Assembly: GCA_903911145.1 (NCBI GenBank)
Contig: CAIWCD010000039.1
Location: 181,576-245,575, forward strand
DNA from: an uncultured delta proteobacterium
GTDB lineage: Bacteria > Myxococcota > Myxococcia > Myxococcales > 40CM-4-68-19
Reading direction: 5' to 3'
Length of the DNA stretch: 64,000 nt
Shown: piece by piece, positions 7,637 to 24,465 of the stretch
Layout: every line of letters starts with the position of its first letter
Position numbering within the stretch: the first letter of the stretch is position 1
Program-made: the position numbers and the translations under genes
The notes under the pieces: model-generated
What the model was told of the DNA's origin: nothing
Seen by the model: the letters and a program-made list of their open reading frames with translations, nothing else
Database searches by the model: none

Positions 7637-8284
7637 GTGGCCACCGGTGCGCGCGGCACGCAGAAGCAGGACAAGCGCGCGCGCATTCTCGATGCTGCCG
7701 TGAAGGTCTTTGCCGAGTGCGGATTTTTCAGTGCGACGATCGCGCAGGTCGCGCGTGAGGCGGGCATCGCGGACGGGACGATCTACCTCTACTTCAAGAG
7801 CAAGGATGAGCTGCTCACCGTTCTCTTCGACGAGAAGATGTCGGCGATCCTCGGCGAGGCGAAGGCGCAGATCGCGCGGGAGCCGGATGCGCCGTCGCGG
7901 CTGACGCGGTTCATCCATCACCATTTCTCGCTCGTGGAGAAGAGCCCGCAGCTCGCGTCGGTGCTGATCGTCGAGCTGCGCCAGAGCGCGCAGCTGCTCA
8001 AGCAGATCGAGAAGGCCAAGCTCGCCGCTTATCTCGATCTGATCGCGGAGATCGTGCGCGAGGGGCAGGGTGCAGGTGCATTCGTCGAGGGCGTTTCGCC
8101 CGGCACCGTCAAGCGCGCGCTCTTCGGCGCTCTCGACGAATCGGCGCTCGCGTGGCTCGTGACGGGCCGCAAAGGTTCACTGAAAAAAGCCGCCACCGAA
8201 GTGGCGACCCTGTTCGTCCGCGGGCTGCTCGTGCCGCGCTCCAAGTTTTCCAAGTTCGCACTGTCAACCGGAGGTGAAGCGTGA
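7637..8284 (+). CDS. fadR: TetR-family repressor, FadR-like (fatty acid degradation/ETF control)
   Basis: A 215-residue TetR regulator. The N-terminal helix-turn-helix is typical (ILDAAVKVFAECGFFSATIA, then AREAGIADGTIYLYFKSKDE), followed by a helical ligand domain. The frame is open from 7544, but that stretch contains the operator, so I take the GTG at 7637, which has GAGGAG 5 nt upstream. The stop overlaps the etfB GTG (GTGA). In Bacillus and several other bacteria a TetR-type FadR releases DNA on binding long-chain acyl-CoA and controls etfBA and beta-oxidation genes. The upstream palindrome and the downstream etfBA make that role likely here; the ligand is inferred. Confidence 0.85.
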   Translation: MATGARGTQKQDKRARILDAAVKVFAECGFFSATIAQVAREAGIADGTIYLYFKSKDELLTVLFDEKMSAILGEAKAQIAREPDAPSRLTRFIHHHFSLVEKSPQLASVLIVELRQSAQLLKQIEKAKLAAYLDLIAEIVREGQGAGAFVEGVSPGTVKRALFGALDESALAWLVTGRKGSLKKAATEVATLFVRGLLVPRSKFSKFALSTGGEA

Positions 8285-9081
8285 AGATCCTGGTCACCAT
8301 CAAGCGAGTCGAAGATTACGAGTCGAAGATCAAGGTCAAGCCGGACGGGACCTGGATCGTCACGGACGGCGTGAACTACCGCGCCAATCCGTTCGACGAG
8401 ATCGCGGTCGAGGAGGCGCTGCGCCTGCGCGACGCGAACATGCCGAGCGAGGTCATCGCCGTCAGCGTCGGCAGCGAGCTCTCGGTCAACGAGATCCGCT
8501 CGGCGCTCGCGATGGGCGCGGACAAGGGCATCCTCGTCAAGCAGGCCGGCTGGGTCGACAGCGACGCGGTCGCGCGCTGCCTGCAGAAGGTCATCGAGCG
8601 CGAGAAGCCGGACCTCGTCCTCATGGGCAAGCAGGCGGTCGACGTCGACGACAACGTCACGGGCCAGCTGCTTGCCGAGTATCTCGGCTGGGGCCAGGCG
8701 ACGTTCGCGAGCAAGCACGAGTCGCTCGAGAGCGCCGAGGAGAAGGCGAAGAAGCCGGGCGTGAAGCTCGCGGCGGACAAGGCGAGCGTCGAGGTGATCC
8801 GCGAGATCGACGGCGGCCTCGAGACGCTCTCGGTGAAGCTGCCCGCGATCGTGACGGTGGATCTGCGCCTGAACGTCCCGCGCTACGCCTCGCTGCCGAA
8901 CATCATGAAGGCGAAGAAGAAGCCGGTTGAGGAGCTCGATCCCAAGGCGCTCGGTGTCGATGTGACGCCCAAGGTGAAGGTGCTCAAGGTGGAGCCGCCT
9001 CCCGCGCGCGCCGCCGGCATCAAGGTTCCCGACGTTGCAGCACTGGTCCAGAAGCTTCACTCCGACGCGAAGGTGATCTGA
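8281..9081 (+). CDS. etfB: Electron transfer flavoprotein, beta subunit
   Basis: The 266-residue small subunit of ETF, which accepts electrons from acyl-CoA and other flavin dehydrogenases and passes them to the quinone pool through ETF:quinone oxidoreductase. The signature near the C-terminus is present (VDLRLNVPRYASLPNIMKAK), together with the N-terminal KRVEDYESKIKVKPDG and the AMP/FAD-contact region MGKQAVDVDDNVTGQLLAEYLGW. A GTG start with GGAGGTG 3-4 nt upstream overlaps the repressor stop. It is followed by etfA after 1 nt, so both subunits are co-translated. Confidence 0.95.
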   Translation: MKILVTIKRVEDYESKIKVKPDGTWIVTDGVNYRANPFDEIAVEEALRLRDANMPSEVIAVSVGSELSVNEIRSALAMGADKGILVKQAGWVDSDAVARCLQKVIEREKPDLVLMGKQAVDVDDNVTGQLLAEYLGWGQATFASKHESLESAEEKAKKPGVKLAADKASVEVIREIDGGLETLSVKLPAIVTVDLRLNVPRYASLPNIMKAKKKPVEELDPKALGVDVTPKVKVLKVEPPPARAAGIKVPDVAALVQKLHSDAKVI

Positions 9082-9082
9082 G

Positions 9083-10042
9083 ATGGCGACCGTTCTTGTC
9101 ATTGCGGAGCAGGTGAAGGGGCAGCTGAAGAAGGCGACGTTCCACGCGCTCGGTGCGGGTCGTGATCTCGCGAAGCGGCTCGGCGGCGCAGAGCTGCACG
9201 TGCTGGTCGCGGGTGCGAATCTCGGCGAGGCGGCCAAACAGCTCGCGGAGTACGCGGGCACCGTGCACGTGGTCGATGGCGCGGCCTTCGAGCATGCGGT
9301 CGCGGAGACGAACGCGCTCGCTGCGGTCGCGGCGGCGAAGGCCACCTCGGCCTCGCACGTCGTGCTCGCGGCGACGACGTGGGGCAAGGATCTCGCGCCC
9401 CGCATCGCGGCCCGTCTCGGCGCGGGCATCGCGTCCGATGTCCTCGCGCTGGTCGGCGAAGGCACGGTGCACTTCAAGCGCGCGATGTGGGCCGGCAACG
9501 CGGTGGCCACGGTCGAAGTGACGACGCCGATCAAGGTCGTCACGGTTCGCCCGACGGAGTTCGCTCCGGCAGAGAAGGCCGCGGCAGCAGGAGCCGTGCA
9601 GGCGTTCGCGGCTGACGCAGGCGCGGCGAAGACGAAGTTCGTCTCCTTCGCCGAGGTCAAGAGCGCGCGCCCCGAACTCGCCGACGCACGCGTGGTGATC
9701 GCGGGCGGCCGCGGCACCAAGGGCGACTTCAAGCCCATCGAAGCGCTCGCCGATACGCTCGGAGGCGCCGTCGGAGCCTCGCGCGCCGTCTGCGATGCGG
9801 GCTGGCAGCCGAACGATCTGCAAGTGGGCCAGACCGGCAAGGTCGTTGCGCCGCAGCTCTACGTTGCGGCCGGCATCTCCGGCGCCATCCAGCACCTCGC
9901 GGGCATGAAGGGCAGCAAGGTGATCGTCGCGATCAACAAGGATCCGGAGGCGCCGATCTTCCAGGTCGCCGACTACGGACTGGTCGCCGATCTCTTCAAG
10001 GCGCTGCCCGAGTTGACCGACGCAGCGGCGAAGCTGAAGTAG
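9083..10042 (+). CDS. etfA: Electron transfer flavoprotein, alpha subunit
   Basis: The 319-residue FAD-binding large subunit of ETF. The C-terminal FAD domain is clear: [20 protein letters not shown], then [20 protein letters not shown] and [20 protein letters not shown]. The N-terminal alpha/beta domain ([16 protein letters not shown]) is normal. It completes the fadR-etfB-etfA operon; no acyl-CoA dehydrogenase gene lies in this window. Its TAG stop is the first base-pairing nucleotide of a strong hairpin (repeat locus 3), which may act as the transcript's 3' structure. Confidence 0.95.
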
Positions 10043-11204: not shown

Positions 11205-11233
11205 TTGACCCAGCGGCTCTGACTGTCTTAGTG
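11205..11233 (+). promoter_or_regulatory. Candidate promoter of the PqqD/radical SAM operon
   Basis: TTGACC (11205-11210), a 17-bp spacer and a weak TTAGTG -10 box (11228-11233). If real, it places the transcript start near 11240, which argues against the GTG at 11231 as start of the PqqD-type gene and for the internal TTG/ATG starts. Confidence 0.35.
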
Positions 11234-11296
11234 CAAGGGGTCGCGCTCTTTCCGTACCGGAAGTCCCTCGCGGCGCTGCTCGCGAAAGGACACAGC

Positions 11297-11623
11297 TTGT
11301 TGCTCATGCCCCAAGGTCCCGAGCTTCTGCGCGCGCAGCCGCGGCGTCATCCCGACGTCGCCTGGCGCAACTGGGATGGCGAGGTGGTCATCCTCACCCC
11401 GAGCGGCCACGATCCTGACGCTCCGCCTGAGCAGCGAGATGGCGCCGAGCACGACTTGAATCCGGTCGCCAGCCGCGTCTGGGAGCTGTGCGATGGAGCA
11501 CGCACTGTCGCGGAGATCGCGCGCGCGCTCGTCGAAGAGTTTGACGTGGATGAAGAGACTGCCGGACGCGATGCCGCCGAGTTCGTTGCGTCGCTCTGGC
11601 AGCGAAAGCTCATTCAATTCTAG
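11297..11623 (+). CDS. PqqD-family RiPP recognition protein
   Basis: Small protein of the PqqD fold (RiPP recognition element), which binds the leader of a precursor peptide and presents it to a modifying enzyme. PqqD features are PRRHPDVAWRNWDGEVVIL, then LNPVASRVWELCDGARTVAE (the NPVAxxVWELCDGxRTVxEI helix) and LVEEFDVDEETAGRDAAEFV. The frame is open from GTG 11231, but that codon lies in the candidate promoter. TTG 11297 has AAAGGA 6 nt upstream and ATG 11306 is the next alternative, giving 105-108 residues, close to the usual length. It heads the run that ends in a radical SAM enzyme and an S26 peptidase, so it is probably the leader-binding subunit for the 53-aa peptide at 20779. Confidence 0.8.
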   Translation: MLLMPQGPELLRAQPRRHPDVAWRNWDGEVVILTPSGHDPDAPPEQRDGAEHDLNPVASRVWELCDGARTVAEIARALVEEFDVDEETAGRDAAEFVASLWQRKLIQF

Positions 11624-11688
11624 GTCGTCTGCACCAGGCCGCCCTGCAGTCGCCGCGGCAGCTGTTTGAAGAAGAGGAGAGTCATCCG

Positions 11689-14600
11689 ATGAATCGCATC
11701 TCTGGTCGTGCCCTGCTCGTCACCGCGCTCCTGCTTTCCGCCTGCTCCGGGGTGCCCGATATCGCCATCCTCTCACCGGCGCCCGGCTCAGCGCTCGGCC
11801 CTGCGGACGATCTCGATCCGGTCGCACCAGGCCTGCAGATCAACATCGATGCGACGACCAGCGCAGTCGACGACAGCGACGCCGTCGCGTCCGGCGGCGG
11901 TGCACCAGTCCACGCCACTGTGCACAGCGGACACCTCCACTTCGCCAACGTCACGCTCGTCGACGGGGCGACCTCGGTGACCGTCACGGTGGTCGACCGC
12001 AAGAGCGACAAGCGCGGGCGCTCCGTCGCCAACTACGCAGTTGACTCCTTCGATCACGGCTGCCGCATCACCACGCCGGCGAACGCGACGACGTTCAGCG
12101 GCGCGCCCGGCGACTCGTCGCTCGTCTCCGTGGTGGTGGAAGCAACCTGCCGCGGTCTCGCTCCGGGCGTGCAGGTCGGCCTGCTCGAGAACGACGATCA
12201 CGCCCGCACGCAGCTGCAGTATCCGGGCGCCGATGGTTCGGTGAGGTTCAGCGCTGCCCTCATCCCGGGTTCGAATCTTCTCGCGGTCGTCGCGCCGGGC
12301 GTGCCGTACGACGTGGTCGAGGTGACGCTCGCGTCGAGCCTCTGCCGCGTCGAGCTCGCTCCTCCCTCGGGCGCGACGTTCAATCTCGCGGGAAACGCAG
12401 GCGCGATCGCCGATCTCGACTCCGCGACGCCCGGCATCCAGGCCGATCTCTCGCTGCGCACCGACTGCGCCGACGGCTCGCCCGCCCAGCTCGTGCTCTC
12501 GCGCGACGCGACCACGCTCACGACCGCCTCTGGCACCGTCTCCGGAGGCGTCGCCTCGTTCGCCGTGACGCTCCCCGATGGCGCCTTCGATGCGCAGGGC
12601 GTCGTCGGTTCATCGTCGTCGGCGTCCAGCTCCCGCCAGGCGACCTACGCAAGCGACAGCCTCGAAGCGACAGCGCTGATCCTCTCGCCCCGCACGGGCG
12701 CGCTGCTCGGTGCGCAGGACAGTGTCGGCACTGGCTCGGCGTTCGTCGCGCTCGTGCGAGGCGAGGTCGACGTTCTTGGCGCCGGAGGGTTCGCGGCTCT
12801 CGAGATCGACCAGGGCACCGATCAGGCGCAGGAGGTTCTCGTCTCGCCCAACGCGACCTCCGGCTTCTTCGCCGCGGACGTCCCGCTCAATCCCGGCTTG
12901 CACAAGATGTTCCTCAAGGCGCAGCGTGCGAGCGGCAACACGACGATCGGCAGCACGATCAACTTCAACGTCGTGACCAACGCGACAGCGCTCGCGATCA
13001 GCTGGCCCGCCAACGGCGCGACGCTCGGATCTTCGCAGGTCACGTTCGCGCAGGGTTTGGCGCAGCTTTCGATTGGCATCGAGAGCACGGGTCTCGCAGG
13101 CGCGGATGTCTCGATCACCTGCGGGAGCGGTATCTCCGCGAGCGGAACCATCGGCGCGACGGGCGCGGCATCGCTCGCGATCTCGTTGCCGGTCATCTCG
13201 TGCGCGGGCGCGCTCTATATGTGCACCGCGAGTGCGAACAGTGGCGCGATCAGCTCTGCGCCGAGCACATTCACCATCGACCCGTTCGCACCGAAGGCGA
13301 CCATCACGGCTCCCCTCTCCGGCGAGACCGCGAGCAGCACGGTTGCGCTGCACGCGACCACCAACTGCTCGGGTGAGGCCCAGCTCTTCACGGTCGACAA
13401 TGGCGGCTCCATCGTCGGGTCCGGCTCGGTGCAGAACAACGCCGTCGATCTCTCCAGCGTGCCGCTCAACGTCGGGCTCAACGCGCTCCACGTGACGGTG
13501 CTCGACGCCGCGCAGAACAGCAGCACCACCGAGGTCGACGTCATCCGCCTCGACGGGGCGCCCGCCATCGTGATCACCTCGCCCGCACCGGGCACGCTCC
13601 AGAGCGCGACTACCGACGTCACCGTTCAGCTCGACAACCGGCCCGTCGGCAGCGCGGTGCAGCTCTTCGTCTCCAACGCAGCCGGGGCGCGCCAGCCGGT
13701 GACCGCCAACACGGTCGCGATTAGCGGGCACAACGTCGCGACCTTCGCGGGCGTGGTGCTGCCCGAGGGCGCGGACACGATCACCGCCTCGGTCACCGAC
13801 CCCGTTACGCCAGTGCAGCCCTCCGCGACCGCCTCGATCGATGTCACGGTCGACACCGGACACGCGCTCTGCGACGTGGTTACGCCCGCCGACGGAATCT
13901 CGTGGACCGGCGCCGATGACAGCAACGCCAGCATCCCGGGATTCCAGCACGGCATGAAGGTGTCGACCAACGCGACCGGCAAGGTTTCGCTGACGATCGC
14001 GCAGGCCGGAGGAGCCTCGATCACGCTCAACGACAACATCGGCGGCGACGGCAGCGCGCGTTCGGTGACGTTCGCCGACGTCACGCTCTCGAACGACGGC
14101 ACCTACAACATCTCGGCGACCTGCGCTGGCACGACGAGCGGCCAATCGCTCACCAACACGATCACCTACGCGGCCAACGGCCCGGCGGTCTCGTTCGTTT
14201 CCCCTCTCGACGGCGCGACGCTGGCGGTCAGCAACTTCGATGTCAACGGAAACACCACCGTGCAGCTCTCCGCGCCGGGCGCAGGAGCAGGTGGCGAGAT
14301 CACGCTCAGCGCCGACTGCGGCAGCGGCCCCACGACCTACGGCCCGACGACGATCGTCTCCGGTTCGGTGAGCTTCCAGATCCCGCTCCTCGCGGACGGG
14401 CAGGACGGCAGCTGCACACTCACCGCGCAGGCCCAGACCGCATCCGGTGACAAGGGCATCCTCGCCAGCATCAACGTCATTGTCGCTCGCCTCGCGCCCT
14501 CTCCCAGCTTCATCGCGCCGACCAGCGGCGAGTCGCTCCAGGCGAACTCCGCGCTGCTCGACTGCACGACGCCGAGCGCGCCGGCGCTGAAGCAAATCCA

Positions 14601-17600
14601 GGTCTCCCTGAGCGGCGACGTCGTCGATGCCTCGGGCCTCTCGATGGTGCTCAACGGCTCGCAGGCGATTTCGCAGACGCCGACCTTCGCCAGCGGCGCA
14701 TGGATCTGGGCGAGCGTGCCGATCGTGGTGGGGAGCAATACGCTTGCGCTCACGGCGACCGATCCCGCGGGAAACAGCGCGCAGGCAAGCGTGACCTTCT
14801 CCGCCACCTGCGCTCTCCCGACGATCGCCTTTGTCTCGCCGGTCGACGGCGCCACGCTTCCTGCGAGCGCCTTCGACAGTCACGGCAACACGTCTGTGCA
14901 GGTCTCATCCAACGCAGGGGCTGGCGGGACCATCTCGCTGAGCGCGACGTGCGGCGGCGCGACCGTCGACTACGGACCGAGTGCGATTGTCTCGGGGTCG
15001 GTCACCTTCCAGATTCCGCTGCTCGCGGCCAGCCAGAACGGGAGCTGCACGCTCTCGGCGCAGGCGCAGAACTCGTTCGGTGTGAGCAGCGCGACGAGCT
15101 TGATCACGGTGAACGTCGCCCGCCTCTTTCCCGCGCCCAGCTTCACTGCGCCGACGAGCGGGCAGACGCTGACGATCAACTCCTCGCAGCTCAACTGCGG
15201 CACCCCTTCGTCGCCCGTGCTCGGTCAGGTGCAGGCCTCGGTTGGTACCGACACGCTGCTCGCATCAGGGCTCGCGCTGGCGGTGAACAGCAGCGCCGTC
15301 TCCCAGACGCCGACGTTCGCGAATGGTCTCTGGACCTGGAGCAACGTGGCGATCGCGCCCGGCACCGATACACTCGCGCTCACAGCGACCGATCCTGCTG
15401 GCAACAGCGCGCAGACGAGCGTCACCTTCTCGGCCTCGTGCGCACGCCCATCGATCAGCTTTGTCTCGCCGGTCAACAGCGGCACGGTGCTCGCGAACGC
15501 CTTCGATTCGAATGGCAAGACGTCCATCCAGCTCTCAAGCGACGCCGGCTCTGGCGGCACGATCTCGCTGACCACCAACTGCGGCAACGGCACCAGCAGC
15601 TACGGCCCTGCCGTGATCTCGTCGGGCGGCGCGACGTTCCAGGTCGCGCTGGGCGTCGCATCACAGGATGTCAGTTGCTCGCTCTCCGCGCAGTCGAAGA
15701 ACTCGCTCGGAGTGACGAGCCTGACGAGCACCATCACGGTCAGCGTGGATCGTCTCGCGCCCGTGCCGGTCTTCACGTCGCCGACCAGTGGCGTGGCGCT
15801 TACGGCAGCATCTGCGACGCTCGACTGCACCACTCCCTCTGCGCCGGTGCTCAAGCAGGTTCAGGCCTCGGTGGGCGCCGACACGGTCGTCGCGGCCGGT
15901 CTCGCACTCACGCTCAACGGCACCACTGTCGCCAAGACTCCGACGGTTGCGAGTGGTGTCTGGAGCTGGACCAATCTGCCGCTCTCGACGAGCACCGACA
16001 GCAACACGCTTGCGCTCACGGCGACGGACGCGCCGGGAAACCAGGCCAGCACGAGCGTCACCTTCTCGGCCTCCTGCACACGACCCTCGATCACGTTCGT
16101 TTCGCCCACCACGGGCGCATCGATCGGCTCGAGCGCGTTCGATGGCAACGGCAACACCAGCATTCAACTCTCGAGCAACGCGGTGGGTGGCACGATCTCG
16201 CTGAGCGCGAACTGCGGCGGCGCGACCACGAATTACGGACCCACGTCGATCGTCTCGGGCGGCGTCACCTTCCAGATCCCGCTGGGAACCGCGTCGCAGA
16301 ACAGCACCTGCACTCTCAACGCGTTCTCCACGACGACAACCAGCGTCAACAGCAACAACGCCTCGATCACCATCTCGGTCGATCGACTCCCGCCCGCGCC
16401 CAGCTTCACCGCGCCAACGAGCGGGCAGGCGTTCACGCCAGCGTCTCCCCAGCTGAGCTGCACGGTTCCCTCCACGCCGACGCTCAGCCAGGTCCAGATC
16501 TCGACGGGGGCCGTCACTGTCCTCGCGTCCGGGCTCGCGCTGACCGTCAACGGTGCCGCTGTCTCCCAGACGCCGACGTTCGCGAACGGGGTCTGGACAT
16601 GGACCAACGTGGCACTCGCGGCGAACAGCAACACGCTCGGTGTCACTGCGACCGACGCGGCTGGAAACCAGGGTTCCTCGAGTGTGACGTTCACTGCGCG
16701 CTGTGCGTCGCTCAATGTCGCGCTCATTTTCAACGCGACCGGGAACCAGTTTGGCTACGACGACGACCAGGATCACTCGACAACCGGTGTGCAGGTTGGC
16801 GCCACTGTGCAGGCGACGGCACCGACGGGTTCGCCCGTGCGGATCTGCTCGACGATCGCAAGCGGCACTCCGGGTGGGTGCACAACCCCGGGAACTGGAG
16901 CACTCACCATCGTCTCGGGTTCAAACACCATCCAGGTGCCGAGCGGCACGACCGGCTTCGCCCAGTTCACGGTGACAATCCCCAACGGGCCGCAAACCGT
17001 CTATGCCGAAGTGACCAACGAAGGTGTTGACGCAACTCCAAGCCTGGCGCTTGTCGCCCGCGATACGCCGCCCACGGTGAAGTCGATCGCGCTCGCCGAG
17101 GACACCCAGGGCCAGACCCTTGTCAGTGGCTCCGATGGGGCGCTCAACCAGACGGAGATCGACGCTGCAAACGGCACCGTGAATTTCCGCGTCGTCTTCG
17201 GTACCAACTCCTATGTGACTGGCCAGACCGTCAAGATTCTCTCGACCGCTTCGTCGACCGTGCTCGGGTCGGCGACGGCGACCCAGAATGGGGACGGGAG
17301 CACGATCACCAACGTCCCGGTCGCGCTCGCCCAGCTCAATCCCGGCGGGTATCAGAGCTACGTCTTCTACGCGAGCGTTGTGGATGACGCGGCCAACCCC
17401 GTCTCGACACCCAACAAGACCGAGGCAGGCGTGGCGCCGACGACACTGGGAACGAGCGCGGTGCCGTTCGTCATCGCACCGACGCCGACGGTTGCGCTGA
17501 CTGCGCCTGTGCTGGGCACCACCAATCTCAACGCGTCCAACGACGTCCGATGCAGTGGAGGCGTCTGCCCGGGTACCGATCCGCTCTTCTACAATCTTGC

Positions 17601-20600
17601 CGCCACGACCAATGCGCCTGACCACTCGCTTGCGAATGTCAGCCTGACGAGCGCGATCACGTTCTTCGAATTTGGAAGCGCGATCACGCCGACGCCCGGA
17701 CTGGGCGAGAAGAACCCGACGACGACGAGCGGCGGCCTCGCCACCGTGGAACTGCCGATCGCCAATGCCATCTCGGCGACCCTCTCGGCGAAGATCGCCG
17801 ATCCCTACGGCAACGTCGCGACCTCGGCCGCATTGACTGCCCGCGTCGATACCGTGTCGCCCGCGCTCTCGATCACGCAGATCAACGGGACCTCGACCAG
17901 CAGCACCGTGACCATCTCAACGCTGAGCACGACCGCCCTGGTTTCGATCGCGGGAGCGGGCCCGCTCGAGAGCGGTCAGACGATTACGATCACCGACGTT
18001 GGAACGCAGGCGGTCGTCGGCAGCGCCGTCGCCGACGGCTCGACCTCAGCGAGCGTGACGATCGTGATTCCGTCCGGCGGCGCGCATACGCTTGTCGCCA
18101 CCGCGACGGACGTGGCCGGGAACAAGGGGACCTCCGCGACGGTGAGATTGACGCAGAACTACGCCGGCCCGTCGCTCGCGATATCATCCCCCCCCATCGT
18201 CGGAAGCACGCTCTGGTTCGGCTTCAACACGCCCGGCGACACCAACGCGAGCATCAGCTGCACGCCGACGTTGAGCTTCACCACCACCAACGTGCCCAAC
18301 GGGCGCAACGTCTCGGCGTGGACGGTCGCATCGAACGCGTCGTGCGGAGCTTCCATCCCGGGCGGAGCCGCGACGGGCGCGGTTGCGAGCCACAACGCGA
18401 CGATCACGCAGGCCTTCACTCTGGCCAATGGCAGCGCCGGTAAGCTCTGCGCCGAGGTCGATGATGGCGCGGGCAATGTCTCGCAGGTCGCGCAAGCATA
18501 CCAATGCGATCTGGCGACGCCGACGGTTGCCTGGGTTTCGCCGACGTTGAATCAACTCTTTGTTGCCAATGGCCAGACGCAGATCTCCAGCGCGACGCCG
18601 AGCACCACCTCGAGCACCACGCAGCTCGGCCTCTCCGCGGCGCGTCTCAGGGTCTACGCGCCGACGGGTGGCACACTGACGCTGAGCGTGAATCAGAACA
18701 GCAGCACCACGGCCCAGTTCGTCAGCTGCGCAGTCGCTGCGACCGGAGCTTCTGCAATCGACATCTACGCGACCGGTGCGGCCACCTGCTCGACCAGTTC
18801 GGCCGTCGGTCAGCTGCTCCTGCCTATCGACTACGCCCAGGCGCTCGCTCACACGCTCACGGCGAGCTTCAGTGCCGCGAGCGGAAACAGCGCGACGAAT
18901 GCCACGCAGAGCGTGAAGATCGATGTCGCCGAGCCTGCGGCTGCGACGGTCGCGGTGGGCAGCAGCCAGAGTGCGATCGGCGTCTTCAACGTCACCGTCG
19001 CGGCGACGCCCGACGACGACCAGGCGATTGCAGGGAGCGGAGGCGCGGCGAGCTGGCAGGTCTGCTACTCGACCACGACCTTGGACGCGACCCACTGGTG
19101 CACGTTTGGTGCGCCCGCAACCGGCACACTCGTGACCGCGAACCTCTCAGGATCTTTCCCCAGCGGAGTCCCGACGAGCTTCCAGGTCGTTCTCCCCGCG
19201 GGCAGCGCGAAGCTCTATCTCGGCGTGCGCGCCGTCGATCGGGTTGGCAACCTCGGAGATGTCGGTGGCTCGAGCGTCATCCAACTCAACACGCAGCCGA
19301 CCGGAAGCACGGTCAATGTGATCGACGACAGCAGCGGTTCGCCGTCGTCCTACGGCCCGGTGACCATGCGCGTGGCCGACGTCGATGGTGACGGTTACGA
19401 CGACATCATCCTCGCCTACCCCTTTGCGGCCTGCAGCTCGGGAACCAATTGCGATGGCCGGATCATCGTCTACTTCGGCGGTTCCGGAGGGGTCACGAAC
19501 GCGGCTGCGCCACTCGTGCTCCTGGGGAATACGGGGACGATTTCAGGCGGTCTGATGGGACTTGGACAGGCCTTCGATGTCGGCGACTTCGATGGCGATG
19601 GCAAAGCCGATATCGCCGCAGGGGAGACGGACTTCGTGAGTGCGTCAGACGTCGTGATCTGGACCGGCGCGGCGATCGCACAGCTCAAGTCGCACGGCGT
19701 TCATGTCGCCGGGCCGACCGTGACGCTCACGGACTCTTCTCCATCGCAGCTGATCGGCGGCACCGTTCGCGCGGTGGGGCAGATCACGGGAGGGAACGGG
19801 ATCGGCTCCGACCTGGCCATCAACAACTTCAACACGAACGATGGGTATAGCGGCACGCTCAAGGTCGCCATTCTCCAGCGCGGCGGGGCGTGGTCGGCAG
19901 CGGGCGCGGGCACCACGAAGCTCTTCTCCAACGGAAGCCCGGCGACTGCGATCATCACGCTGCCCGCGGTCGTGGCGGGAGTCGGCCCAGCCGCTACGGA
20001 CAACGCCACCGTTGAGTCAGCGCCGTTCACCTATGCGGGCGCGAGCGGGTCGCTGGCGGGAGTGGCCTTCGCGCTGCTCAACAACGGATCGACCCCTGCT
20101 GCGCACGAGACACGATTGTTCTCGACCACGCAGATCGCGAGCGGCGGCAACGTCGACTGGTCGACCGGCACGGTCTTGCCGGCGCCGACTGGCGTTGCGG
20201 GCATCAACTCCTACGGCGCGTACATGGCCGGTGGACAGAACGCAGTGGGTGATAGTCACCAGGACCTGCTCATCACGGACAGCAGCACCGGCATCCAGTA
20301 TCTCTACGACGGGACCTCCCTCCTGGGCCCCTCGGTTTCAAGCGAGCCTACGACGGCGACGTTTGCGTACGGCGCAGGCACTCCCCTCATCGCGACTGGC
20401 GCTACGCTGCTGCCTGACCTGAATGGCGACGGCTACGCGGAGATTGCGGGCGCCAACGATCCAGCCCAGAGCGCGAACATTCCCGCGTACGTCTGGTTCG
20501 GAGGCAACGCCGCGTTGCCCTCCCTGCCGTTCATCTCTCAAGCGAACGGCTGCCAGACCACGGCGACCAACTTCTGCTTCTCCCCTGGACGCGGACAGGA

Positions 20601-20760
20601 GCTCGGCGCGTCACCCGTGTCGTCGAGCGCCTACGTTGGCCAGGCCATCGGGAGCGGCCATGTGACGTCGCTGACCGGTCGAGACGTCGTGGTACTTTCC
20701 AAGAACCAGGACACGCCGGGCGGTGCAATCACGGCGAGCACGCTCATCATCATGCGCTGA
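11689..20760 (+). CDS. Giant Ig-like repeat and FG-GAP/VCBS surface lipoprotein (3,023 aa)
   Basis: Predicted outer-membrane or surface lipoprotein: signal peptide with lipobox LSAC (Cys19). Most of the chain is a series of Ig-like (Big/cadherin-like) beta-sandwich modules rich in Ser, Thr, Ala and Gly. Residues about 835-1675 consist of four ~210-residue tandem units, each with FVSP at its start, a Cys pair, a TYGPTTIVSG-type strand and a LALTATDPAGNSAQ-type closing strand. The C-terminal quarter holds FG-GAP/VCBS calcium-loop motifs such as DVDGDGYDDI (about 2564), DFDGDGKADI (about 2634) and DLNGDGYAEI (about 2910), typical of beta-propellers. GAGGAG precedes the ATG. It lies between the PqqD-type gene and the peptide gene, with only 18 nt to the latter, so it probably shares their transcript. 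An adhesin or stalk role is inferred; whether it is a substrate or carrier for the peptide system is unknown. Confidence 0.85.
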   Translation: MNRISGRALLVTALLLSACSGVPDIAILSPAPGSALGPADDLDPVAPGLQINIDATTSAVDDSDAVASGGGAPVHATVHSGHLHFANVTLVDGATSVTVTVVDRKSDKRGRSVANYAVDSFDHGCRITTPANATTFSGAPGDSSLVSVVVEATCRGLAPGVQVGLLENDDHARTQLQYPGADGSVRFSAALIPGSNLLAVVAPGVPYDVVEVTLASSLCRVELAPPSGATFNLAGNAGAIADLDSATPGIQADLSLRTDCADGSPAQLVLSRDATTLTTASGTVSGGVASFAVTLPDGAFDAQGVVGSSSSASSSRQATYASDSLEATALILSPRTGALLGAQDSVGTGSAFVALVRGEVDVLGAGGFAALEIDQGTDQAQEVLVSPNATSGFFAADVPLNPGLHKMFLKAQRASGNTTIGSTINFNVVTNATALAISWPANGATLGSSQVTFAQGLAQLSIGIESTGLAGADVSITCGSGISASGTIGATGAASLAISLPVISCAGALYMCTASANSGAISSAPSTFTIDPFAPKATITAPLSGETASSTVALHATTNCSGEAQLFTVDNGGSIVGSGSVQNNAVDLSSVPLNVGLNALHVTVLDAAQNSSTTEVDVIRLDGAPAIVITSPAPGTLQSATTDVTVQLDNRPVGSAVQLFVSNAAGARQPVTANTVAISGHNVATFAGVVLPEGADTITASVTDPVTPVQPSATASIDVTVDTGHALCDVVTPADGISWTGADDSNASIPGFQHGMKVSTNATGKVSLTIAQAGGASITLNDNIGGDGSARSVTFADVTLSNDGTYNISATCAGTTSGQSLTNTITYAANGPAVSFVSPLDGATLAVSNFDVNGNTTVQLSAPGAGAGGEITLSADCGSGPTTYGPTTIVSGSVSFQIPLLADGQDGSCTLTAQAQTASGDKGILASINVIVARLAPSPSFIAPTSGESLQANSALLDCTTPSAPALKQIQVSLSGDVVDASGLSMVLNGSQAISQTPTFASGAWIWASVPIVVGSNTLALTATDPAGNSAQASVTFSATCALPTIAFVSPVDGATLPASAFDSHGNTSVQVSSNAGAGGTISLSATCGGATVDYGPSAIVSGSVTFQIPLLAASQNGSCTLSAQAQNSFGVSSATSLITVNVARLFPAPSFTAPTSGQTLTINSSQLNCGTPSSPVLGQVQASVGTDTLLASGLALAVNSSAVSQTPTFANGLWTWSNVAIAPGTDTLALTATDPAGNSAQTSVTFSASCARPSISFVSPVNSGTVLANAFDSNGKTSIQLSSDAGSGGTISLTTNCGNGTSSYGPAVISSGGATFQVALGVASQDVSCSLSAQSKNSLGVTSLTSTITVSVDRLAPVPVFTSPTSGVALTAASATLDCTTPSAPVLKQVQASVGADTVVAAGLALTLNGTTVAKTPTVASGVWSWTNLPLSTSTDSNTLALTATDAPGNQASTSVTFSASCTRPSITFVSPTTGASIGSSAFDGNGNTSIQLSSNAVGGTISLSANCGGATTNYGPTSIVSGGVTFQIPLGTASQNSTCTLNAFSTTTTSVNSNNASITISVDRLPPAPSFTAPTSGQAFTPASPQLSCTVPSTPTLSQVQISTGAVTVLASGLALTVNGAAVSQTPTFANGVWTWTNVALAANSNTLGVTATDAAGNQGSSSVTFTARCASLNVALIFNATGNQFGYDDDQDHSTTGVQVGATVQATAPTGSPVRICSTIASGTPGGCTTPGTGALTIVSGSNTIQVPSGTTGFAQFTVTIPNGPQTVYAEVTNEGVDATPSLALVARDTPPTVKSIALAEDTQGQTLVSGSDGALNQTEIDAANGTVNFRVVFGTNSYVTGQTVKILSTASSTVLGSATATQNGDGSTITNVPVALAQLNPGGYQSYVFYASVVDDAANPVSTPNKTEAGVAPTTLGTSAVPFVIAPTPTVALTAPVLGTTNLNASNDVRCSGGVCPGTDPLFYNLAATTNAPDHSLANVSLTSAITFFEFGSAITPTPGLGEKNPTTTSGGLATVELPIANAISATLSAKIADPYGNVATSAALTARVDTVSPALSITQINGTSTSSTVTISTLSTTALVSIAGAGPLESGQTITITDVGTQAVVGSAVADGSTSASVTIVIPSGGAHTLVATATDVAGNKGTSATVRLTQNYAGPSLAISSPPIVGSTLWFGFNTPGDTNASISCTPTLSFTTTNVPNGRNVSAWTVASNASCGASIPGGAATGAVASHNATITQAFTLANGSAGKLCAEVDDGAGNVSQVAQAYQCDLATPTVAWVSPTLNQLFVANGQTQISSATPSTTSSTTQLGLSAARLRVYAPTGGTLTLSVNQNSSTTAQFVSCAVAATGASAIDIYATGAATCSTSSAVGQLLLPIDYAQALAHTLTASFSAASGNSATNATQSVKIDVAEPAAATVAVGSSQSAIGVFNVTVAATPDDDQAIAGSGGAASWQVCYSTTTLDATHWCTFGAPATGTLVTANLSGSFPSGVPTSFQVVLPAGSAKLYLGVRAVDRVGNLGDVGGSSVIQLNTQPTGSTVNVIDDSSGSPSSYGPVTMRVADVDGDGYDDIILAYPFAACSSGTNCDGRIIVYFGGSGGVTNAAAPLVLLGNTGTISGGLMGLGQAFDVGDFDGDGKADIAAGETDFVSASDVVIWTGAAIAQLKSHGVHVAGPTVTLTDSSPSQLIGGTVRAVGQITGGNGIGSDLAINNFNTNDGYSGTLKVAILQRGGAWSAAGAGTTKLFSNGSPATAIITLPAVVAGVGPAATDNATVESAPFTYAGASGSLAGVAFALLNNGSTPAAHETRLFSTTQIASGGNVDWSTGTVLPAPTGVAGINSYGAYMAGGQNAVGDSHQDLLITDSSTGIQYLYDGTSLLGPSVSSEPTTATFAYGAGTPLIATGATLLPDLNGDGYAEIAGANDPAQSANIPAYVWFGGNAALPSLPFISQANGCQTTATNFCFSPGRGQELGASPVSSSAYVGQAIGSGHVTSLTGRDVVVLSKNQDTPGGAITASTLIIMR
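14191..16712 (+). repeat. Four tandem ~630-bp coding repeats in the giant lipoprotein gene
   Basis: Units begin near 14191, 14827, 15457 and 16093 at the phrase FVSP..G and run to about 16712. Protein identity between units is high, with DNA blocks such as TCGCTGAGCGCGA and GCTCACGGCGACCGA recurring. They encode paired Ig-like modules and are likely sites of copy-number change by recombination and of short-read assembly collapse. Confidence 0.75.
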
Positions 20761-20778
20761 TCCGCGCGGAGGTTAGAC

Positions 20779-20940
20779 ATGCAAGACAAGCCAGCCAACG
20801 CTCGCCAGGGAAACAAAAGGCCGTATCGGAAGCCCGAGCTGGTTTCGTTCGAGCTGTTTGAGCGGCGCTCTTTGACCTGTACCACCCAGAAGACAAGCGC
20901 GAGTCCTCCGGCGCGTGGTTGCGTCTATACATCTTCATGA
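20779..20940 (+). CDS. Putative RiPP precursor peptide, 53 aa
   Basis: A short gene that automated calling would easily miss. ATG 20779 has GGAGG 7 nt upstream. It starts 18 nt after the giant lipoprotein gene and its stop overlaps the ATG of the kinase gene (ATGA at 20937-20940). The leader has Y16-R-K-P19-E-L21, the YxxPxL motif that PqqD-type domains recognise in lasso-peptide leaders, followed by SFELFERRSLTC. The C-terminal part (residues 34-53) holds Cys34 and Cys48, several Thr/Ser and a PPARGCVYTSS end: a plausible core for radical SAM or kinase modification. The role is inferred from motif, size and position between PqqD, kinase, radical SAM and peptidase genes; no modification can be read from the sequence. 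Confidence 0.75.
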   Translation: MQDKPANARQGNKRPYRKPELVSFELFERRSLTCTTQKTSASPPARGCVYTSS

Positions 20941-21752
20941 GGATGCAAGAAGTCGAGTTCTGCGGTCTGCGCATTTCTGTGTGCGTCGCAGAGGACGTGC
21001 ATGCAGACCAGAGCGCGATGTTCTTTGACCGCTTGCGGCCGTATTTGAGCGAGCGAGGTTCGCCAACCGGGCAGGAAGGTCCGGGCGGATCGCGAATCGC
21101 GCTGCTTGCAGATCCATCTTCGTCCGCTGCGCTTGTGGTGAGCCGGTCGATCCATATCGACGCAGAGAACAGCGGCTCGCTGGATCTGCTCCAGACTCTG
21201 CGCCGAGCCTGTGCGATGTGGCTCGTACAGAGCGGGGGCCTCCTGTTGCATGGCGCGAGCGTTGAGCTGAATGGTCGAGCGCTTGCGCTGGTTGGACCCT
21301 CGGGCGCAGGGAAGACGACCATCGCGCGGCGCCTGCGTGCTGCGGGCGCGCACGTGATCGGCGACGAGGTCGTCGCCTTGCGCGCAAGCAGACTGTTCGG
21401 TCATCCGCTGCAGCGCCGTCTCGGAGATGGAGTCGCTCCCGCCAGGGGAGTCGAGCTCTCCGGGATCGCGCTGATCGCGCAATCCGCCGTGGGTGCGCCC
21501 GTGAGTCTCAAGCAGCTTTCAGCACCGCAGGGCGCGCGGCAGCTGATTCGGCGCGTGTTCATGCCACCCGCCGAAGGTCCTCTCGTCGCTGCGGCCCTCG
21601 AGTCCTGCGAGCGATTGAGCGAGGCTGTCCCCGTCTACTCCCTGTCGCTGACCAACGATGAGCGTGCGACTGAAGCGGTTCTCTCTCTGTTCAGGCGCCC
21701 CTCGCCCGTTGTCTCGGCGGCGCAGCCTGCTCTGGCGGAGGTTCTCCAATGA
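20937..21752 (+). CDS. HPr kinase (HprK)-related P-loop kinase
   Basis: A 271-residue protein with an HPr-kinase/PEP-carboxykinase-like core: an N-terminal beta region, GLLLHGASVELNGRALALVG and Walker A GPSGAGKTT (about residues 119-127), then VIGDEVVALR. HprK-related kinases occur with PqqD proteins in several peptide-modification systems, and in some lasso-peptide loci they phosphorylate the product. The frame opens at TTG 20919, but ATG 20937, overlapping the peptide stop, is the natural coupled start. Its own stop overlaps the radical SAM ATG by 4 nt. The substrate may be the 53-aa peptide; a regulatory kinase is the alternative. Confidence 0.75.
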   Translation: MRMQEVEFCGLRISVCVAEDVHADQSAMFFDRLRPYLSERGSPTGQEGPGGSRIALLADPSSSAALVVSRSIHIDAENSGSLDLLQTLRRACAMWLVQSGGLLLHGASVELNGRALALVGPSGAGKTTIARRLRAAGAHVIGDEVVALRASRLFGHPLQRRLGDGVAPARGVELSGIALIAQSAVGAPVSLKQLSAPQGARQLIRRVFMPPAEGPLVAAALESCERLSEAVPVYSLSLTNDERATEAVLSLFRRPSPVVSAAQPALAEVLQ

Positions 21753-22918
21753 TGCGTGCCGTCGATCGCGCTCGACGCGCTCTCGTCCCGGCGGTCGTGA
21801 TGCTGACCGTGACGCACAAGTGCCAGCTCGCTTGCGCGCACTGTTACCAGGCCAACCACGACAGCGAGGATCTCTCCACCGAGGAGCTCATCGCGCTGAT
21901 GGACGAGTTGGTGCAGATGGGCACGCTCGATGTCGTCTTCACCGGCGGCGAAGCGCTTCTGCGCAAGGACATCTTCACGCTCATGGCCGAGGCGCGGAAG
22001 CGGGCGTTCGCGGTCACGCTCTTCTCGAACGGCGGGCCGATCAACGCGGCGACTGCACGCAAGCTTCGCGAACTGCGCGTGATGCGCGTGGAGATCTCGC
22101 TGCACGGCTCGCACGCGGCGACGCACGATGGCTTTGTCGGCCGCCAGGGCTCGTTCGATCGCGCCGTGCGCGCGATCGAGTTGCTCGATGACGAAGGTGT
22201 GCCAGTGCTCGTCAAGAGCAGCATCGTGCGGTGCAACATCCACGAGATCTTCGAGTTGCAGAAGCTCTTCGCGGCTCGGCCGCGCGTGCAGTTCGTGAGC
22301 GATCCGACGCTCTTCACGAAGGACGATGGAACGTCCGTGATGCACGAGCGAGCGACGCCCGAGATGATGGAGCAGCATCACGCCGAACGATTCTCGACGA
22401 TGTCGAGCGCCGATCTGGCCAATGCACGTACGCTGCTGTCCGAGCCACCCAGCGAGGCCGAGGTGGACCAACGCCATCCTTGCGGCGCAGGGCGGACGCT
22501 CGCCGCGGTGCAGCCGAACGGCGACGTGCTCGCGTGCATTCACATCCCGACGCGGCCGCTGGGAAATCTGCGCCAGACGCGGTTCTCCGAGATGTGGCTC
22601 GATAGCGAACCGGTGCGAGCGCTTCGGCAGTTGACGCTGCAGAAGTTCACCGAGTGCCAAGGCTGCGAGTATCGCCACGTCTGCGCGAAGTGCCCGGCGC
22701 TCTCGTTCGCCGAGAGTGGGAAGCTCGAGGGGCACTCGAAGCAGACATGCGAGACGACCAAGGCGTACTGGGGCGCCATCAAGAAGCGGCTCGCGGAGGA
22801 CGGCACCCGGGCAGCTCAGGGCGCTGAGGTCCGTACGCTCGATCGGGTGGCGCCGCGCGTGCCGGGTTGCGATGACACAACGCCTCGGCGGTTCGCTCTG
22901 CGGGTCGTGGGAGGCTAG
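21749..22918 (+). CDS. Radical SAM/SPASM peptide-modifying enzyme
   Basis: A 389-residue radical SAM enzyme. The 4Fe-4S motif CQLACAHC (Cys25, Cys29, Cys32) is intact and followed by TGGEALLRKDIF (the GGE SAM-binding motif) and later barrel strands. The C-terminal SPASM region has the expected Cys set: HPCGAGRTLAAVQPNGDVLAC, then ECQGCEYRHVCAKCP. SPASM members such as PqqE, AlbA and QhpD make thioether, C-C or oxidative changes on ribosomal peptides. It is coupled by ATGA overlap to the kinase gene. The best candidate substrate is the 53-aa peptide, with Cys34 or Cys48 as possible thioether donors; the chemistry is inferred. Confidence 0.88.
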   Translation: MMRAVDRARRALVPAVVMLTVTHKCQLACAHCYQANHDSEDLSTEELIALMDELVQMGTLDVVFTGGEALLRKDIFTLMAEARKRAFAVTLFSNGGPINAATARKLRELRVMRVEISLHGSHAATHDGFVGRQGSFDRAVRAIELLDDEGVPVLVKSSIVRCNIHEIFELQKLFAARPRVQFVSDPTLFTKDDGTSVMHERATPEMMEQHHAERFSTMSSADLANARTLLSEPPSEAEVDQRHPCGAGRTLAAVQPNGDVLACIHIPTRPLGNLRQTRFSEMWLDSEPVRALRQLTLQKFTECQGCEYRHVCAKCPALSFAESGKLEGHSKQTCETTKAYWGAIKKRLAEDGTRAAQGAEVRTLDRVAPRVPGCDDTTPRRFALRVVGG

Positions 22919-22923
22919 CGCCT

Positions 22924-23478
22924 GTGCGCGCCCGCGATCGAGAGGGCGACGTCGGTCCCGCGCTTGCCGCCGAGTTGCTCGAACAGGGGCGCCCCGTCAC
23001 GCTGCGCGCCCGCGGCATGAGCATGCGCCCGCTCATCCATGATGGCGATCTGCTCACGCTCGCTCCGCTCGGTTGGCCGGTGCGCGTTGGCGACGTGGTG
23101 GTCGCGCTCTGCATGGGGCGCCTGCTTGTGCACAGGGTTGTGCGCCTCGAGGAGGAAGGCGCGGGCGAGCGAGCAGGCATGGCGGCGCTGCTTCAAGGAG
23201 ACGCTCACTGGAGTCCGGATGGATCGTTTGTATACCAACAATTGGTATGCAAACCATCTGGAGCAGCACCGATCCAGGCGTCGCTGGCGGACTCTCCTGC
23301 CTCTCCGGATCGGATCGTCGGGCGTGCTGTCGCACAGCGCCGCGGAGCCCAAGTGCTCGGTGCCTGGCGCCTGGGTGGGCCACTCTCTCGAATCTGGCTC
23401 GTCGCGCTCCCTCTCGTGCGTGCGCTGCGCGGCCTCTGGCGTCGCGTCTCGAACCTCCGGGCAGCCCGCGCGAGTTGA
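22924..23478 (+). CDS. S24/S26-type peptidase (signal-peptidase-like), candidate leader protease
   Basis: A 184-residue protein with the signal peptidase I-like catalytic core: ARGMSMRPLIHDGDLL with Ser33, GDVVVALCMGRLLVHRVV with His70 in the place where archaeal and SipW-type enzymes have His instead of Lys. No clear N-terminal membrane segment; a hydrophobic stretch near the end (LSRIWLVALPLVRALRGLW) may anchor it. GTG 22924 has GGGAGG upstream and lies 5 nt after the radical SAM stop. It could remove the leader from the modified peptide. Unusual: a dyad repeat (23222-23258) lies inside the coding frame, adding residues SFVYQQLVCKPSG between the catalytic region and the C-terminal part without breaking the frame. 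Confidence 0.7.
   Translation: MRARDREGDVGPALAAELLEQGRPVTLRARGMSMRPLIHDGDLLTLAPLGWPVRVGDVVVALCMGRLLVHRVVRLEEEGAGERAGMAALLQGDAHWSPDGSFVYQQLVCKPSGAAPIQASLADSPASPDRIVGRAVAQRRGAQVLGAWRLGGPLSRIWLVALPLVRALRGLWRRVSNLRAARAS
23222..23258. repeat. Dyad-box repeat locus 4 (inside the S26 peptidase gene)
   Basis: Boxes TTTGTATACCAA and TTGGTATGCAAA share a 17-bp inverted repeat (23222-23238 with 23242-23258, 15 of 17 pairs) around a CAA loop. It is the only member lying well inside a coding sequence. Flanks match the family arms GATCGTT and AACCATC. Confidence 0.7.
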
Positions 23479-23547: not shown

Positions 23548-24465
23548 ATGGCGGACCTCGCACTTGCAATCTCGATGGCGGTCTGGGGCAGCTCGTTCGC
23601 CGTGCTGCGCTATTTCCTGCTCGGCGGCGGTGGCGATCCGGCGCTGGCGGCGTCCCCTCTCATCACGCTCGCGGTGCGAATGGGGCTCGCCTCGGCACTG
23701 CTCGGACTCTTCCTGCTCGCGCGCCGAATCGTTCGCGGCGCGCCGAAGGCCGCAGGGGGCGCGACGAGAGAGTTCCTCCGCGACGGCCTGCTCTGCGGCG
23801 TCCTGCTCGCGATCGGATTTCTCCTCCAGACCGAGGGACTCTCGCGCACCACCGCGTCGCGCAGCGGATTCCTCACGGGTCTGCTCGTCGTCTTCGTTCC
23901 GCTCCTTGAGTATTTGCTGTTCAGGAAGAAGCCCGCGCCGCCCGCACTGGTGGCGCTCGCGCTCGCGTTCACAGGGATGGCGCTGCTCGCCGGACCGCTC
24001 GATGGCGGCGGCACGCTCGTCGGCGATTGGCTCACGGTCGGCTGCGCGCTTGTCTTCGCCGGCCAGATCCTTGCGGTCGGACGCGCGGCGCAGCGGCATT
24101 CGATTCTCTCGCTGCTGTTCATCCAGTTGGTCTGCGTCGGTGTCGCCGCGGCCGTCGTCGGGCCGCTCGTCGAGACCACGCAGCTCCCGCGCGACCCCAG
24201 GCTCCTGGGCGCGATCCTCTATCTGGCGATCTTCGCCACGCTGATCGCCTTCTCCGTGCAGATCTGGGCGCAGCGCACGTTGCCGCCCGTGCGCATCGCG
24301 CTGCTCTCCTCGCTCGAGCCGGTCTTCGCAGCGATCTTCGCGGCGCTGCTCCTGCACGAGCGGCTCACGAAGCGGGAACTCGTCGGCGGTGCGCTCATCG
24401 TCGTCGGCGTGATCGTCGGTGAGCTCGGCGCGGCGCTGCGTTCGCATCGCGCAGCCAACGTATGA
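23548..24465 (+). CDS. EamA/DMT-family transporter
   Basis: A 305-residue integral membrane protein with ten hydrophobic segments in two EamA repeats (first near ALAISMAVWGSSFAVLRYFL, second from GDWLTVGCALVFAGQILAVG). Typical features are QTEGLSRTTASRSGFLTGLL and the C-terminal LLSSLEPVFAAIFAALLLHE. It is a drug/metabolite exporter-type carrier of unknown substrate. It follows the S26 peptidase by 69 nt on the same strand, so it may be the exporter of the peptide system; that is inference from position only, because EamA proteins are common and rarely carry peptides. It converges on the PRMT-like gene with an 8-nt gap. Confidence 0.85.
   Translation: MADLALAISMAVWGSSFAVLRYFLLGGGGDPALAASPLITLAVRMGLASALLGLFLLARRIVRGAPKAAGGATREFLRDGLLCGVLLAIGFLLQTEGLSRTTASRSGFLTGLLVVFVPLLEYLLFRKKPAPPALVALALAFTGMALLAGPLDGGGTLVGDWLTVGCALVFAGQILAVGRAAQRHSILSLLFIQLVCVGVAAAVVGPLVETTQLPRDPRLLGAILYLAIFATLIAFSVQIWAQRTLPPVRIALLSSLEPVFAAIFAALLLHERLTKRELVGGALIVVGVIVGELGAALRSHRAANV

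Follow-up and report, generated by a model that had tools for sequence, protein, structure and literature searches.

The window analysed here is a stretch of 64,000 nucleotides (nt) from an uncultured member of the Myxococcota, and it carries on its forward strand a run of six genes encoding, in order, a PqqD-type protein, a giant lipoprotein of 3,023 amino acids (aa), a 53-aa peptide, an HprK-like kinase, a radical SAM/SPASM enzyme and an S26-type peptidase (Table 1). This order had been proposed in a first-pass annotation, and it was confirmed by a check of frames and families, as were the junctions described there from the giant gene onward (18 nt, an ATGA overlap, a second ATGA overlap and 5 nt); the gap between the PqqD-type gene and the giant gene is 65 nt. 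Translation likewise bore out the YxxPxL motif (Y16, P19, L21) and the two cysteines, Cys34 and Cys48, that had been read in the peptide. The start of the PqqD-type gene is unsure, the options being GTG 11231, TTG 11297 (the earlier choice) and ATG 11306, and the length of the kinase from its ATG at 20937 equals that of database entry P0001. The locus had been put forward as a candidate for the ribosomally synthesized and post-translationally modified peptides (RiPPs), with an unannotated precursor and a giant lipoprotein, a proposal supported by the conserved frame of the peptide and by the phylum-wide recurrence of the cassette.

Table 1. Positions of the cassette genes, their main motifs and the flanking genes in the window
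Feature	Position	Strand	Basis or remark
PqqD-type RRE (RiPP recognition element)	11231..11623	+	PF05402 66.1 bits, cut-off 23.4
3,023-aa lipoprotein	11689..20760	+	Big_13 (Ig-like) and FG-GAP repeats (Pfam)
Lipobox LLLSAC of the giant lipoprotein, Cys19	11743-11745	+	
C-terminal FG-GAP part of the giant, predicted integrin-alpha-like beta-propeller	19006..20757	+	alignment A5, low-confidence model
GGAGG, likely ribosome-binding site of the peptide gene	20768..20772	+	6 nt 5' of the peptide ATG
53-aa precursor-like peptide MQDKPANARQGNKRPYRKPELVSFELFERRSLTCTTQKTSASPPARGCVYTSS	20779..20940	+	
Leader motif YRKPEL (Y16, P19, L21)	20824..20841	+	
FERRSLTC block, invariant Cys34	20857..20880	+	conserved in the 22-row alignment
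Ser52, predicted kinase target	20932..20934	+	at least 90% conserved
HprK-like peptide kinase (predicted)	20937..21752	+	start at ATG 20937, 271 aa
Radical SAM/SPASM enzyme	21749..22918	+	Radical_SAM 79.6 bits, SPASM 37.5 bits
S24/S26-type peptidase with Ser/His pair, predicted leader peptidase	22924..23478	+	PF00717
EamA transporter, flanking gene, putative exporter	23548..24465	+	PF00892
etfB-etfA, flanking genes marking the ancestral site	8281..10042	+	

Conservation and recurrence of the peptide

The codon-position guanine-plus-cytosine bias of the window peptide is weak (0.51/0.57/0.64), a feature that would suit a chance open reading frame (ORF), and the reality of the peptide therefore rests on its conservation. 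Conservation of the frame in homologous loci had been named beforehand as one condition on which the candidate depended, and it was found in an orthologue from a genome of the same genus (G001) and in a 22-row family, while a peptide with the leader motif occurs in 61 of 74 loci that encode both kinase and PqqD. The G001 peptide, of 55 aa, is encoded 9 nt 3' of the giant gene and 3 nt 5' of the kinase start, and it carries YERPAI, ELFERRALAC and a second Cys, with ELFERRxLxC common to the window peptide. The PqqD-type orthologue of this genome is 66% identical, and its giant, of 2,328 aa, is 35-38% identical to that of the window in two segments. The contig bearing giant and peptide ends at the kinase start; the genes for the radical SAM enzyme (56%) and the S26 protein (39.5%), followed by one ORF and EamA, lie on a second contig that begins inside the radical SAM gene. 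Because the cassette is split over two contig ends in this way, the kinase profile search missed G001.

These observations were further strengthened by database searches. A profile of four FER-type peptides (A6) matched 21 proteins with up to 67% identity to the window peptide, two of which (P0077 and P0087) are the peptides of G001 and locus L031 already in the profile, leaving 19 further homologues. Across the 22 rows of alignment A8, found with a profile that contains the Y/P motif, Y16, P19, L26, F27, E28, R29, L32 and C34 are invariant, S23, E25, R30, Q37, G47 and S52 are conserved in at least 90% of rows, and a second tail Cys is present in 21 rows, its column varying. Y16 and P19 are invariant also in the broader alignment A4, whose rows, like those of A2, were chosen by motif, so that the invariance of these two residues in both alignments is partly by construction. 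The A4 profile matches 59 proteins, several being its own rows; those matches that have a source name are labelled hypothetical or uncharacterised and occur in Myxococcus, Corallococcus, Pyxidicoccus and Archangium among others, and the relatives with the cassette are probably myxobacteria. None of 32 peptides matched NCBIfam at E 0.1, and the Pfam scan of the peptides gave one chance-level match (E 0.065). Given the G001 orthologue, the 19 further homologues and the 61 of 74 loci, a chance ORF is ruled out, and we attach next to no probability to it.

The recurrence of the peptide was assessed around matches to the kinase, for which 100 loci were fetched and the window added; 97 of these 101 kept a kinase match. 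The test set comprised the 74 loci with a kinase (E < 1e-15) and a PqqD gene on one strand, chosen without regard to the peptide, and another 17 loci, in which the kinase strand bears no PqqD gene, lie outside this set, several of them near contig ends. Within the 640 nt around the kinase start, 61 of the 74 loci have a small ORF with Y..P.[LIV], as do 13 of 1,836 control windows of this size taken from other parts of that strand of the same loci. The 74 loci represent 42 genera, 33 of which have at least one locus with a motif peptide, and when each genus and layout (see below) is counted once the proportion is 43 of 54. PqqD lies upstream of the kinase in 69 loci, and in 53 of these the two are separated by a gene of more than 700 aa on the same strand. 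These two counts, 61/74 and 53/69, are fairer evidence than the sets selected by motif or layout. Of 195 genomes sampled from the phylum, 132, among them that of the window, match the kinase profile (A1, E 1e-10). We read the pattern as that of a widespread RiPP-type system whose core module consists of PqqD, the peptide and an HprK-like kinase, in most cases with a Ser/His S26 peptidase and optionally with a radical SAM enzyme.

Three layouts and their secreted partners

Three layouts were distinguished among the 65 loci with a peptide, 63 of which fall within the 74, and nine loci were left unsorted. Layout I (31 loci, the window included) has the order PqqD, giant, peptide, kinase, radical SAM enzyme where present, and S26; layout II (12 loci) has S26, PqqD, a protein of ~1,030 aa, peptide and kinase; layout III (13 loci) has PqqD, radical SAM enzyme, peptide and kinase, with S26 in 11. 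The core module is often paired with a giant Ig/FG-GAP lipoprotein in layout I, a PQQ_2-propeller protein in layout II or a C25 peptidase, of the gingipain family, in layout III. The giants of the 31 layout-I loci form one blastp cluster by single linkage, which is lenient for repeat proteins, and the partner profile matches in 23 of these loci. Pfam places FG-GAP and Big_13 in all nine giants scanned of the 31, Big_13 falling below cut-off in L036, and four of the nine belong to the eight loci that the partner profile missed. The C-terminal part of the window giant, in a low-confidence model, has integrin alpha heads as its best Foldseek matches (E 7e-7). In four other layout-I giants (L048, L113, L139 and L143) the lipobox Cys is followed two residues on by another Cys (CxC), a feature that the window giant does not have. 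The one layout-II protein scanned contains a PQQ_2 propeller (Pfam), and its homologues occur in 12/12 layout-II loci and in two unsorted ones. A C25 peptidase lies within the fetched stretch of 9 of 13 layout-III loci, and of ten large proteins scanned with Pfam, all but that of L153 contain C25; one of these nine comes from locus L161 (see below).

A partner could be assigned to 51 of the 71 kinases in the tree, and among these its class changes three times; the cassettes therefore tend to be inherited with their partner. The giant lipoprotein might also stand beside a peptide-modification operon without taking part in it, a reading encouraged by locus L139, where the kinase lies 3 kb away behind EamA-like and metallo-hydrolase-like genes, and by layout III, where partners are often on the opposite strand or kilobases off. 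We consider it improbable, given the gene of more than 700 aa that stands between PqqD and kinase in most loci (the 53 of 69 above) and the giants of G001 and L139, which abut the peptide gene. Selection on the peptides was gauged from nonsynonymous (dN) and synonymous (dS) divergence, with dN 0.010-0.040 against dS 0.13-0.25 in layout-I pairs (n=6) and dN below dS in all layout-II pairs (n=13).

A nearly full layout-III set is present in another phylum, in a record of the Anaerolineales, which belong to the Chloroflexota (L161:7859-14076; among the matches listed, at least six loci in the wider contig scan): it comprises, in this order, PqqD, a radical SAM enzyme, a YQKPEL peptide, a kinase and a C25 peptidase with C25 propeptide, and no S26 gene was seen at this locus. 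Several other loci were observed on the side. In a Marmoricola record, from an actinobacterium (L164:8949-10872), a YSAPKL peptide adjoins an HprK-like kinase and PqqD, possibly a lasso-type cluster. At L047:3250-10155, PqqD, a YEPPRI peptide and a kinase lie 3' of a gene matching MglA, the gliding-motility GTPase, with two called genes between. A related locus at L065:2291-7839 and in L064 combines a kinase and PqqD with as many as three radical SAM genes and, in L065, S26, and no YxxP peptide was seen at either in the strict test. L149:5040-15099 resembles layout I, with two radical SAM genes between peptide and kinase and a tail with AFERFALSC.

The surroundings of the cassette point to its history. 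An etfB-like cluster flanks 16 of 31 layout-I cassettes, and etfA and EamA are 1.1-2.5 kb apart on one contig in 10 of 11 other genomes of the window's family, against 13.5 kb in the window; from this flank and this proximity it follows that the cassette is old and often absent from the family. The EamA gene is kept in relatives without the cassette. Besides G001, the ten other genomes of the family contain no kinase above the profile threshold, and weak single-sequence kinase matches occur on other contigs of two genomes, G004 and G009 (E 3.4e-4 and 1.8e-4).

Predicted activities of the enzymes and the peptide tails

The best PDB matches of the PqqD family profile are TbiB1 and TfuB1, which we take to be lasso-peptide RREs, ahead of PqqD itself. 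A leader motif of the kind bound by PqqD-like RREs (Y..P.[LIV]) is present in the peptides, and binding is predicted. In paeninodin, a PqqD-like B1 protein binds the leader at ~5 nM (PMC5067487, in excerpt), and W/Y/LxxP/L/I leader motifs have been reported for many RREs (PMC12710340, in excerpt). The kinase gives only a weak AAA match in Pfam and weak matches to HprK-related models in NCBIfam; its residues H105, G125, K126, T128 and D143 are nevertheless invariant in 18 rows, and its AlphaFold model (predicted local distance difference test score, pLDDT, of 82) matches PEPCK first and then HprK/P, so that both the fold and the catalytic residues of an HprK/PEPCK-type kinase are found on the predicted model. 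The lasso kinase BsfK, which phosphorylates its precursor with the aid of an RRE, has the motif H148-G163-G166-G168-K169-S170-D186-D187 (PMC10368454, in excerpt), and the window kinase reproduces its spacing with H105-G120-G123-G125-K126-T127-D143-E144; other lasso kinases act on a C-terminal Ser, according to the same excerpt. The kinase homologues bear a precomputed label, PF27840.1.

Among the S26 domains (n=57), Ser is present in 88% and His in 100%, the Ser/His pair of an S26-type enzyme (where Ser/Lys would also serve) from which peptidase activity is predicted; the closest solved relatives, SEC11A and SEC11C, are weak matches (E 2e-4). Those of the radical SAM/SPASM enzyme are SkfB and PqqE. 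In layout I the presence of a radical SAM gene and of tail Cys are inversely linked: tails with Cys and Cys-free tails number 2 and 6 where the gene is present and 22 and 1 where it is absent (Fisher p 2.5e-4, a guide only since the rows are related). Both radical-SAM loci with tail Cys, the window and L031, have a FER...C block that is common to G001 and L149. Five layout-I loci with a radical SAM gene (L036, L038, L124, L131 and L148) have tails that are free of Cys and share a YG[AGP][FY][RQK] block close to their end; they likely represent a separate product family. A C-terminal Ser ends the tail in 11 of 13 layout-III peptides.

Proposed maturation and function, and relation to known systems

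What is established is which genes are present and in what order they lie, that the peptide is conserved, that the module recurs and is frequently linked to one of three types of secreted partner, and that kinase and peptidase keep their catalytic residues. On this basis we consider it probable that the operon-like run joins a conserved 53-aa peptide to PqqD, kinase, SPASM and S26 proteins by which it would be bound, modified and trimmed as RiPP precursors are, and that its product acts together with the giant lipoprotein outside the cell. Judging from family, residues and linkage, PqqD would bind the YRKPEL motif and present the peptide; the kinase would phosphorylate a tail Ser or Thr, most likely Ser52 in peptides of the window type; the SPASM enzyme may act around FERRSLTC and Cys34; and the S26 protein would remove the leader through its Ser/His pair. 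The mature tail might then be exported and dock on, or be displayed by, the co-encoded lipoprotein, and export and the nature of this partnership are the weakest steps of the mechanism.

Several observations weigh against this interpretation. Thirteen of the 74 loci miss the strict small-ORF test: a Y-motif ORF lies outside the 640-nt window in L118, L069, L129, L139 and L149 (the first two being candidates only), a Trp variant is in place in L041 and L155, no motif peptide was seen on inspection of L142, and L059, L064, L065, L141 and L156 complete the set. A large gene beside the peptide was the defining criterion of layout I, so its 31/31 is by construction, and 16 of the 65 peptide loci have no profile-assigned partner, four of these 16 encoding FG-GAP giants by Pfam. 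An S26 match was not found in 8 of 65 peptide loci, and since 23 of the 31 layout-I loci yielded no radical SAM gene, the radical SAM step is not general. The tail ends in a C-terminal Ser in only 1 of 31 layout-I peptides, that of the window, and that every peptide has a Ser or Thr in its tail says little, given how long the tails are. The window kinase is poorly placed on the tree, weakly among C25-linked kinases, one layout-II peptide pair has dN close to dS (0.043 versus 0.048), and the C-terminal part of the giant was modelled with low confidence (pLDDT 57). No recurrent exporter was found besides EamA-like genes, in 11 of 31 layout-I neighbourhoods as judged by eye, and the cassette is dispensable, because etfA and EamA lie so close together in 10 of 11 family relatives.

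The nature of the product can be viewed in more than one way. It is possible, and we put it forward tentatively, that these are protein-bound RiPPs found across the phylum, in which PqqD, kinase and S26, with an optional radical SAM enzyme, would make a phosphorylated and sometimes cross-linked tail that serves as a built-in ligand or prosthetic group of a co-encoded secreted partner, exchanged in the course of evolution (integrin-like Ig/FG-GAP, PQQ_2 propeller or C25), arming or switching a surface protein and not acting as a free antibiotic. Less likely, the peptide in its mature form would be secreted freely as an antimicrobial or a signal, with the giant as its receptor, immunity or uptake protein and not its carrier. 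The operon linkage of peptide and giant, the resemblance of Cys tails and YxxP leaders to secreted RiPPs and the named relatives, which are myxobacteria, a predatory group, would fit such a role; against it, no ABC exporter or immunity gene is among the top recurring clusters of the 31 layout-I neighbourhoods (by eye), and the partner can be a C25 peptidase, which would be odd as a receptor.

If the probable reading of a RiPP-type cassette acting with its secreted partner is true, modified peptides of this class are common in the Myxococcota, and their precursors go unmatched in NCBIfam and, where databases name them, are labelled hypothetical or uncharacterised. It would also provide a kinase-plus-RRE pathway outside lasso peptides, together with an S26-type leader peptidase, and a testable link of peptide modification to giant adhesin-like lipoproteins, gingipain-like proteases and propellers.

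A close likeness in individual components is to phosphorylated lasso peptides (paeninodin and BsfA/BsfK of Bradymonas), which, in the excerpted sources, share the YxxPxL leader, a discrete PqqD-like RRE and an HprK-like kinase with H...GxxGxGK[ST]...D. A YxxPxL leader and a B1-type RRE are found in the window, and all three components occur in lasso clusters (PMC10368454, in excerpt), which would favour a lasso cluster or a remnant of one with a tailoring kinase. The window cassette differs from lasso clusters in its S26-type peptidase and giant secreted partner; moreover, Transglut_core3 (leader peptidase B2) has no match in the genome (98.96% completeness), none of eight matches to Asn_synthase (lasso cyclase) lies in the window, the nearest on the same contig (C39) being ~65 kb from the cassette, and the tails vary widely. 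The lack of the one enzyme in the genome and of the other in the cluster speaks against a lasso cluster, short of an unrelated cyclase, and we hold the whole reading to be very improbable. Anti-phage defence, for which PADLOC gave only weak general matches (mad3 20.8 bits; pVip 49.6 and 44.8 bits over the radical SAM core), is not favoured.

Biosynthesis of pyrroloquinoline quinone (PQQ), by PqqA, PqqD and PqqE, likewise combines a small peptide, a PqqD-type protein and a SPASM enzyme, but the window adds a kinase and an S26 protein and the radical enzyme is optional; the PqqD and PqqE equivalogs of NCBIfam remain below cut-off in the window (36.8 of 46 and 97.2 of 381). PqqA is the precursor of the PQQ cofactor of quinoprotein propellers, and the peptide could by analogy give rise to a cofactor or prosthetic group that its partner uses. 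PqqD and the SPASM enzyme do adjoin propeller-type partners in layouts I and II, and PqqE is among the closest solved relatives of the SPASM enzyme; this origin nonetheless seems improbable, as no radical SAM gene was found in the 23 layout-I loci mentioned above or in 12/12 layout-II loci, the C25 partner is no propeller, and the tails are long and conserved.

Two further comparisons concern the kinase and the radical enzyme. The SynChlorMet (Scm) and HprK_rel_A systems also have an HprK-related kinase, and Scm a PqqD-family protein; the window gives weak matches to ScmC, ScmD and HprK_rel_A, its kinase reaching 27.6 and 28.2 bits for ScmC and HprK_rel_A against cut-offs of 125 and 200. Sactipeptides and ranthipeptides, in which a SPASM enzyme makes a Cys thioether, are alike in that the SPASM enzyme is nearest SkfB among solved structures and the tail bears Cys, with Cys34 invariant, but they differ in that the window has a kinase, an S26 protein and a giant, and most layout-I radical-SAM loci are Cys-free (6 of 8). 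The text of a review of RiPP proteases contains neither S26 nor S24, and among the papers listed in searches of open full-text literature none described the combination of genes, most subscription papers lying outside this search. RRE-dependent RiPP pathways are characterized by a short precursor gene that lies near the gene of an RRE protein and is conserved in related genomes, and such a gene is found here; RiPP-type peptide maturation is itself known, and here it would come with unusual secreted partners.

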